Assembly: GCF_009937975.1 (NCBI RefSeq)
Contig: NZ_AP018441.1
Coordinates: forward strand, 5,270,001 to 5,334,000
DNA from: Undibacterium sp. YM2
GTDB lineage: Bacteria; Pseudomonadota; Gammaproteobacteria; Burkholderiales; Burkholderiaceae_D
Direction of reading: 5' to 3'
Length of the DNA: 64,000 nt
In this document: one piece after another, positions 52,438 to 64,000 of the stretch
Layout: every line of letters starts with the position of its first letter
Position numbering within the stretch: position 1 is the stretch's first letter
The notes under the pieces: generated by a model
Told to the model about the DNA's origin: nothing
Seen by the model: only the letters and a program-made list of their open reading frames with translations
The model's database searches: none
Program-made: the position numbers and the translations under genes

Positions 52438-53118
52438 TTAGTTCCTGGATGGGAAGATACCTTCCATCGCGATGATGTAGTTCAGACCCAGGTAAGGTTG
52501 CATATTGGAGATAGTAGCGCTCGATACGACAGGTACTGTCAATGGAGTGCCGCCGCCAGTATTTGAATTGTTGACGGTACCTGAGCCTGAAACAGATGTG
52601 GTAACGCCACCTAAAGCGACTGGACTAGTCGGAGCGGTTCCCGCCGGTAAATATATTGCTGCTGCTGAACCTGCACCGGATGCTGTACTAGTCAGCCCTC
52701 CATTATTGAGTACTGCTGCCACACCACCATTCGTCCCAGTACCAACGTTGATAGTTGTACTTGCGGTAATGCTATCCAAAGTAACAGTACCTGTATGGGT
52801 ATGCGAGGGCATGTTTGCTGTTGTCAATGAGATCGTGGCAGTGCCATTAGAGATCACCGTCGCATTATTACTACCCGCTCTTTCACCCTGTACCACATTT
52901 TGCAGGCCGGGCCCTTGCGCTTGGGAACCAACAACAACACGTCCACGCAAATCAGGTATACCAAATGTATTTTGGCCATCGCCACCATACATGGTACCCA
53001 ACAGGGCAAACATGGCAGAATTTTGACTGATAGGCACAGTTTGTCCATTGCAGAACAGCCAGCCACGAGGAGGATAGTTAAAGCCTACGGCCAATACGGT
53101 ACCCATAAATGCATCCAT
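52438..53118 (-). CDS. Tail-collar-domain protein (MdpB-like)
   Basis: A 226-residue protein of the phage tail-collar/microcystin-dependent protein group. The N-terminus (MDAFMGTVLAVGFNYPPRGWLFCNGQTVPI...FALLGTMYGGDGQNTFGIPDLRGRVVVG) is the collar domain. The rest is a Gly/Ser/Thr-rich low-complexity beta stretch ending in LNYIIAMEGIFPSRN. ATG 53118 with GGAG upstream is preferred to the TTG at 53130. No phage genes surround it. Non-phage homologues often sit with sulfotransferase and hydroxylase genes, as here. Confidence 0.88.
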   Translation of the reverse strand: MDAFMGTVLAVGFNYPPRGWLFCNGQTVPISQNSAMFALLGTMYGGDGQNTFGIPDLRGRVVVGSQAQGPGLQNVVQGERAGSNNATVISNGTATISLTTANMPSHTHTGTVTLDSITASTTINVGTGTNGGVAAVLNNGGLTSTASGAGSAAAIYLPAGTAPTSPVALGGVTTSVSGSGTVNNSNTGGGTPLTVPVVSSATISNMQPYLGLNYIIAMEGIFPSRN

Positions 53119-53321
53119 TGCATACTCCAATTCAAGTTATCGTTTAAATAGGGATTGTGCTATCTAGTCTCTTCTGCATCCACCCCTTCACCAGGGAGTT
53201 GAATTCAGGGCTTTCATCAATGGCTTTAATATGCAAACAAACAAGCAATTTCAAAAAAAGCAAACCAATTCTACAACCCTTATGCAAAAAATACACTGCA
53301 AATTTTTCATCGCTGCATCAG

Positions 53322-63900: not shown

Positions 63901-64000
63901 GGTGTTGATGCCCTGCTGAACAAAAACGGCACCTCGTCTGCCAGCAGTGCCACCACCTACAACCTGGCTGTTGCCGATGACTGGAACAGCGTTATCACTG
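57973..64000 (+). CDS. Giant DUF4347 repeat protein, N-terminal part
   Basis: A single frame of 2009 codons that runs off the right edge without a stop. Residues about 45-210 form a DUF4347 domain ([12 protein letters not shown]... VISHGDEG with His100... LYGCDIG with Cys143... ending LSDYNYLLH). Then a beta-helix-like part with [17 protein letters not shown] and a glycine-rich stretch at about 303-572. From residue 578, tandem units of 116-126 residues begin (ITSATYD.TG...VTGT.). There is no classical signal peptide. DUF4347 proteins are typically large secreted, RTX-like or Ig-like adhesins. Function probably surface attachment or matrix. Confidence 0.88.
   Translation, partial: [2009 protein letters not shown]
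58880..59690 (+). repeat. Glycine-rich low-complexity segment inside the giant protein
   Basis: About 270 codons dominated by Gly with Ala, Ser, Thr and Asn, including several runs of six to eight Gly in a row written with mixed GGT/GGC/GGA codons. Short motifs such as [12 protein letters not shown] and [11 protein letters not shown] recur in it, like rungs of a right-handed beta-helix, and Gly loops separate them. Confidence 0.85.
59704..64000 (+). repeat. Tandem array of alternating short and long repeat units
   Basis: Units begin (at the I-T-S-A-T-Y-D codons) at 59704, 60055, 60430, 60808, 61183, 61531, 61903, 62251, 62623, 62971, 63340 and 63688. Lengths are 117, 125, 126, 125, 116, 124, 116, 124, 116, 123 and 116 codons. 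From 61183 onward short ([32 protein letters not shown]) and long ([31 protein letters not shown]) units strictly alternate, making a 717-720-base super-unit. Later copies are much more alike at DNA level than the first four. Confidence 0.95.

Follow-up and report, generated by a model that had tools for sequence, protein, structure and literature searches.

A conserved Undibacterium locus uniting two sulfotransferases and a hydroxylase with a giant DUF4347 protein and a tail-collar protein

In the 64,000-nucleotide stretch C1:5270001-5334000 (the window) of the 6.66 Mb genome of Undibacterium sp. YM2, whose nearest named relatives are Undibacterium, we analysed a locus of eight genes encoding a tail-collar protein (COLLAR), two sulfotransferases (ST1 and ST2) of the type using 3'-phosphoadenosine 5'-phosphosulfate (PAPS), a hydroxylase (HYD), a GNAT acetyltransferase, a DUF6916 protein, an adenosine 5'-phosphosulfate (APS) kinase (APSK) and a giant DUF4347 repeat protein. 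We judge it an even chance that the locus serves specifically to modify cell-surface or secreted proteins, through two modules that draw on one PAPS supply, ST2 acting on the giant and HYD with ST1, probably joined by GNAT, on the collar protein. The gene families, their conservation and co-occurrence and the predicted folds of ST2 and DUF4347 are established; the substrates, the order of reactions, the modified residues, the place of reaction and the export route are what we infer.

Conservation of the locus

All eight families named in the original prediction were recovered by Pfam and NCBIfam profile searches, each with a Pfam match (Table 1), and APSK passed the NCBIfam apsK model (TIGR00455; 173 bits, cut-off 138.7). 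The two divergent runs were likewise confirmed: GNAT-HYD-ST1-COLLAR on the minus strand, with GNAT/HYD and HYD/ST1 overlapping and COLLAR about 200 bases after ST1, and DUF6916-APSK-ST2-GIANT on the plus strand, where APSK and ST2 overlap and the giant extends beyond the window end. That the genes form a dedicated locus rather than a chance assembly was borne out by two associations: COLLAR and GNAT were near HYD in 18 of 18 HYD loci, and in 28 of 31 loci ST2 immediately preceded DUF4347. The proposal of one modification system held as to conservation and was refined: the set looks like a pair of modules, one linking ST2 to the giant, the other linking HYD, ST1 and GNAT to the collar protein.

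Sixty genomes, our own included and 36 belonging to the genus, were searched for APSK, ST2, ST1, HYD and DUF4347. Within the genus, ST2 (at least 59% identity) was found in 12 genomes, ST1 in 11 (with a further 26% match in G006) and HYD in 10, the sets being nested; both genomes with ST2 and without HYD (G008 and G025) are 73% complete. The locus-type APSK subfamily (at least 58%; next match 49%) was confined to exactly the 12 ST2 genomes. Five genomes (our own, G004, G019, G031 and G034) carry the eight genes in the same order, three (G002, G030 and G032) carry the block minus ST1, which lies elsewhere beside a gene read from its sequence as RecA-like, and in G010 and G024 the parts are split over several places. 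All or most of the set was found again in Undibacterium, Pseudomonas, Ramlibacter, Massilia and Acidovorax; the neighbourhood check proposed with the original prediction therefore found conservation across five genera, and the objection that no neighbourhood is conserved fails. In Acidovorax G065 a divergent form of the set makes up a single run (APSK-HYD-ST1-GNAT-three COLLAR-ST2-giant), and Ramlibacter holds PAPS-synthesis-like genes (CysNC and CysD as read from the sequence, the APS kinase part alone by model), HYD, ST1, COLLAR, ST2 and the giant together.

Table 1 Genes of the locus, in window coordinates (aa, amino acids)
Feature	Position	Strand	Description
COLLAR	52438..53118	-	Phage-tail-collar-domain protein, long type; 226 aa from the chosen ATG start (53118), 230 aa from the listed TTG start (53130); Collar PF07484, E 2e-26
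ST1	53322..54371	-	PAPS-type sulfotransferase, 349 aa; Sulfotransfer_3 PF13469, E 5e-7
HYD	54368..55090	-	2-oxoglutarate/Fe(II) hydroxylase, PF05118 / proline cis-4-hydroxylase kind; Asp_Arg_Hydrox PF05118, E 6e-17
GNAT	55074..55682	-	RimI-like acetyltransferase; PF00583, E 3e-14; TIGR01575 rimI, E 9e-12, under its cut-off
DUF6916 protein	55739..56068 (ATG start; TTG start 55709)	+	PF21880, E 9e-16
APSK	56385..56966	+	APS kinase, PAPS-making; PF01583, E 2e-48
ST2	56959..57810	+	TPST-like sulfotransferase (predicted), immediately 5' of the giant; PF13469, E 7e-13
GIANT	57940..64000, on to 68,154	+	3,404 aa; DUF4347 PF14252, E 1e-52 (~58108-58593)

ST2 and the giant DUF4347 protein

The ST2 residues R12, R111 and S119, which belong to its two PAPS-binding motifs, were kept in all 33 ST2 sequences, and the predicted fold was nearest that of tyrosylprotein sulfotransferase (TPST) by a clear margin over other sulfotransferases. 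Glu52, kept in 32 of the 33 and located between the motifs, is a candidate base. The predicted fold suggests that ST2 is a TPST-like enzyme, for which tyrosine sulfation would be a possible reaction. Animal TPST1/2 differ from it in sequence (16% identity), and in ST2 the PAPS motif stands at the very N-terminus, which leaves no room for an anchor. ST2-like sulfotransferases also occur on marine cyanophages and marine viral contigs (for example S-SKS1 and S-SRM01; 21-32% identity, 10 records), and ST2 matches phrog_27463, a family with no assigned function.

The giant (Thr 16%, one Cys) consists of an N-terminal DUF4347 domain, a Gly-rich part, about 16 repeats of 115-125 aa carrying a Ser-x-x-Tyr-Asp/Asn motif, and a C-terminal DUF4214 domain. 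The DUF4347 domain, which belongs to its family by the profile test, has a predicted fold like that of clan CD (caspase/CHAT/C80) with conserved His and Cys, and we regard it as a probable cysteine protease domain of the caspase/CHAT type. For the DUF4347 giants this would mean a head that is probably a protease, as well as an enzyme that modifies them. Tce1, presented in the available text of PMC13323088 and PMC8262886 as a DUF4347 putative cysteine protease (PDB 9qpe), differs in being a short type VI effector, whereas in our locus DUF4347 forms the head of a giant.

A scan of a species-genome collection by short peptide patterns, which is not exhaustive, gave at least 48 ST2 loci. Among the 31 at 55% identity or more, which include several of the Undibacterium loci counted above and two from the same genome (L093 and L098), 28 had a DUF4347 domain that begins 76-713 bases downstream on the same strand; the three loci that had none were L088, cut off by the end of its contig 152 bases on, and L100 and L102 (Anabaena). 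Among 369 genomes sampled across the class, two more had strong ST2 matches (E<1e-100), both with DUF4347 next, and a weaker match (L177, E 5e-42) lacked it. In addition, our genome holds a second ST2-giant pair (L057:8226-17635, near C1 1,746,238) with no HYD module beside it, and over 2,094 aligned residues its two giants are about 91% identical. DUF4347 proteins without a nearby ST2 also occur, and on a Nostoc plasmid ST2 sits between an RTX protein and cysC. In L174:667-1329 a collar protein comes just before the ST2-DUF4347 pair, and its N-terminus resembles a Sec signal peptide by eye, hinting that such collars are exported.

In our model, APSK would produce PAPS as a pool shared by both modules, and ST2 would sulfate the neighbouring giant in the cytoplasm, ahead of export. 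Export genes adjoin the pair in some relatives: an ABC (ATP-binding cassette) transporter in Acidovorax L078, and in Pseudomonas triticifolii L089 an outer-membrane factor and HlyD before the pair and HlyD and an M50-HlyD protein after it. This arrangement recalls the RaxX-RaxST-RaxAB system of Xanthomonas, in which, as far as the accessible text of PMC4216712 and PMC6637879 goes, a sulfotransferase with two PAPS motifs acts before export, has a PAPS supply and is encoded beside export genes; RaxST is taken here from its published description. The same text of PMC6637879 reports that RaxST was modelled on TPST2 and that raxST homologues (~40%), presumably with other substrates, occur in Proteobacteria and Cyanobacteria. 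On the other hand, no short RaxX precursor was found in our locus, where the gene after ST2 encodes the 3,404 aa giant, and a second sulfotransferase, the hydroxylase, GNAT, DUF6916 and the collar protein are added. By analogy, the locus may work like sulfation of RaxX by RaxST before type I export, without being a Rax system.

HYD, ST1 and the collar protein

HYD passed the PF05118 test (62.5 bits; cut-off 22.6), and its iron/2-oxoglutarate residues H107-x-D109, H156 and R166 were invariant in 8 sequences. Its nearest solved relative was L-proline cis-4-hydroxylase (4p7w, E 4e-12), an enzyme of free proline, aligned over about 170 residues with the His-x-Asp...His and Arg set complete, ahead of beta-hydroxylase chains at E 4e-3 and weaker. 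HYD differs from that enzyme and from the PF05118 Asp/Asn beta-hydroxylases in forming its own subfamily, tied to collar genes. In ST1, both PAPS-type motifs were conserved in 8 sequences, and no solved relative was found at E<=1.

Of 19 HYD loci found at E<=1e-30, 18 were examined (G067 was left out; 17 close, one divergent) in stretches of 16-20 kb. COLLAR lay within 1.8 kb of HYD and GNAT within 2.1 kb (100 bases or less in 16 loci, 1.2 and 2.0 kb in two). DUF6916 was present in 17, DUF4347 in 15 and ST2 in 14 of these loci, and ST1 lay within 230 bases of HYD in 12 and elsewhere in the genome in the other six. ST1 and HYD were both retained, on different contigs or far apart, in U. fentianense and in Undibacterium G002, G010, G024, G030 and G032. 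In three Acidovorax genomes, COLLAR and GNAT stood by HYD although the stretch holds no ST2 or DUF4347.

Forty genomes with ST2 relatives were then surveyed for HYD and ST1, the other 7 of the 48 loci lying in genomes already covered. At E<=1e-30 the two shared the same 9 genomes (seven with close orthologues, two with divergent pairs), and neither here nor in the 60-genome set was there a case of HYD without ST1; in the class sample of 369, HYD at this threshold was found in our own genome only. At E<=1e-3 the counts were 11 for HYD, with G081 (1e-14, partial) and G095 (5e-4) added, and 13 for ST1, with a fragment in P. viridiflava G071 (2e-14) and matches in G081, G085 and G087 (2e-4 to 3e-4) added. 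Furthermore, a Diaphorobacter plasmid encodes a 630 aa fusion protein in which one domain is of PF05118 (34% to HYD) and the other of PF13469; an IPTL-CTERM protein is encoded next to it. HYD relatives in plasmid records had at most 35% identity among the 10 of 26 matches listed. In L215:14001-16987, a DUF4915/TIGR03032 gene lies after the fusion and is a candidate for a further family of partners in sulfation loci.

The pairing of HYD and ST1 suggests hydroxylation-dependent sulfation. The original prediction had cast hydroxylated Asp/Asn as possible sulfate acceptors; the idea of hydroxylation followed by sulfation gains support from the co-occurrence and the fusion, whereas Asp/Asn as worded does not, because HYD is nearest L-proline cis-4-hydroxylase, ahead of the beta-hydroxylases. 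HYD would hydroxylate a residue and ST1 would sulfate the product, or a site dependent on hydroxylation. The collar protein is the likeliest target, and GNAT would probably acetylate it too, possibly at its N-terminus. The most specific version, in which HYD hydroxylates a collar residue, ST1 sulfates the new hydroxyl and ST2 sulfates the adhesin-like giant, so that giant and collars form a charged surface structure, is put forward tentatively, as possible rather than probable. We know of no sulfated hydroxy-amino acid in proteins.

Two Undibacterium genomes contain runs of DUF6916, GNAT, three collars, a lipoprotein-like gene and DUF4347 with no sulfotransferase inside (L066:3-7074 and L074:7554-12998), from which GNAT, collars and DUF4347 may be an older core. 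In Pseudomonas viridiflava (L091:1-10000), the collars, ST2 and the giant are kept, whereas ST1 is reduced to a fragment and HYD is absent; the second module of this copy may be in decay.

Contrary evidence and alternative explanations

Several results weigh against the two-module reading. In the 300 residues after DUF4347, neither Tyr nor acid-flanked Tyr was enriched in 41 ST2-linked as compared with 23 unlinked proteins, and D/E and Pro were lower in the linked giants. The strongest candidate for a site was a Tyr that closely follows DUF4347. It was present in 37 of 41 linked proteins and also in 7 of the 21 unlinked ones that could be aligned (two rows lacking the anchor motif were dropped); this position held Trp in 12 of the 21 and Phe or Trp in four linked giants. 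Relatedness explains part of this difference, and the Tyr was rejected as the sole site, being enriched yet neither exclusive nor universal. The window's giant has 14 Tyr-Asp motifs (shuffles: mean 3.8, maximum 9), but these are copies of one repeat motif and thus no evidence for sulfation sites. No HYD-specific collar residue was found between 25 HYD-near and 9 other collar sequences. The catalytic Glu is not evident in ST2, where Thr33 or Ser aligns with what we take to be its position in TPST.

The genomic associations also have limits. As few as 3 changes account for the ST2 pattern when it is placed on a PrfA tree, which covers 37 genomes of the genus (status known for 34), so that genus-level Fisher p-values are overstated; an independent-pairs test allowed at most 3 pairs, too few to reach significance. 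None of the 17 loci with ST2 relatives at 44-54% identity had DUF4347 next to it. In the five of these that were scanned (L106, L108, L109, L110 and L115), the next protein was of type V (ESPR) in every case, four being 1,980-3,193 aa with PATR repeats. An ST2 copy in Undibacterium G010 and G030 precedes a Vps10/BNR protein without DUF4347. Our genome has no type I export set beside the giant: the next gene encodes an ABC protein, and the HlyD-type adaptor and ABC ATPase found 5-7 kb on (73,436-75,481 in window numbering; L006:17436-19481) are no more than candidates for its export. The sulfotransferase part of the Diaphorobacter fusion had no significant match to ST1; the fusion therefore supports the chemistry, not the family.

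The foremost alternative, which we consider unlikely, is that the sulfotransferases act on a glycan, lipid or small metabolite, the giant and collar only using or displaying the product, so that the neighbourhood reflects co-regulated surface functions. It accords with the breadth of PF13469, with the want of a solved ST1 relative, with the site searches, which found no protein site on giant or collar, and with a weak match of ST2 to the Nod-factor sulfotransferase NoeE (E 2e-5; 23 bits, cut-off 500). The TPST-like predicted fold, the constancy of the DUF4347 partner and its repetition in our genome's second pair argue against it, and no glycosyltransferase was recognised in the loci, though no scan was aimed at them.

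Somewhat less probable still is that ST2 and the giant are the sole modification pair, HYD, ST1 and GNAT making or tailoring something else and travelling along as an island. The absence of HYD (E<=1e-30) and of ST1 from 31 of the 40 genomes with ST2 relatives favours this and tells against a joint system; sulfation of the giant need not use hydroxylated residues. HYD's kinship to a free-proline enzyme is also in its favour. On the other hand, COLLAR and GNAT kept close to HYD in every locus, even in the Acidovorax stretches, and HYD never occurred without ST1.

A phage-remnant reading, in which the collar gene and those around it derive from a decayed prophage or tailocin, is very improbable and was rejected: COLLAR matches phage tail families, and the available text of a 2009 paper (PMC2745422) speculated on a phage origin for a collar/acetyltransferase/sulfotransferase island, but the other six of the seven locus proteins scanned (giant left out) match no phage structural family, the genes stay together across genera, and none of 11 flanking open reading frames (ORFs) encodes tube, sheath, baseplate or lysis functions. 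These flanks, FecR/LysM, CHASE2 kinase, HemA, PrfA, DsbB and PrmC before the locus and an ABC protein, an unmatched ORF, an M48 peptidase, an HlyD-type protein and an ABC ATPase after the giant, make the locus unlike a prophage.

The literature search, covering titles and abstract starts of the open papers listed, found no description of the whole gene set, no paper on DUF4347 with a sulfotransferase and no hydroxylation-dependent sulfation; among open papers there was also none that joined any two of collar, MdpB and microcystin dependent protein, or collar with type I secretion and adhesin. To our knowledge, bacterial protein sulfation has been documented for RaxX, and such decoration is hardly known in bacteria. 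Many host species of the enzyme-partner pairs are environmental, and with named pairs in beta-, gamma- and alphaproteobacteria the substrate question is directly testable. Fragments of the picture are already in print, in the accessible parts of two papers. One, a review, states that bacterial TPST genes are sparsely distributed and, from unpublished observations, often beside exported-protein genes (PMC9372746). The other lists in the P. syringae pv. tabaci 11528 island an acetyltransferase, a collar protein, a sulfotransferase, an S-layer protein and a 1,618 aa protein (PMC2745422, 2009), a similar neighbourhood for which that text gives no hydroxylase or APS kinase and proposes no modification mechanism. 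In G006 (L072:6402-14155), an APS kinase and a distant sulfotransferase adjoin a gene whose 1,902 aa product has ESPR and TPS domains; the placing of sulfotransferases next to giant secreted proteins thus recurs.
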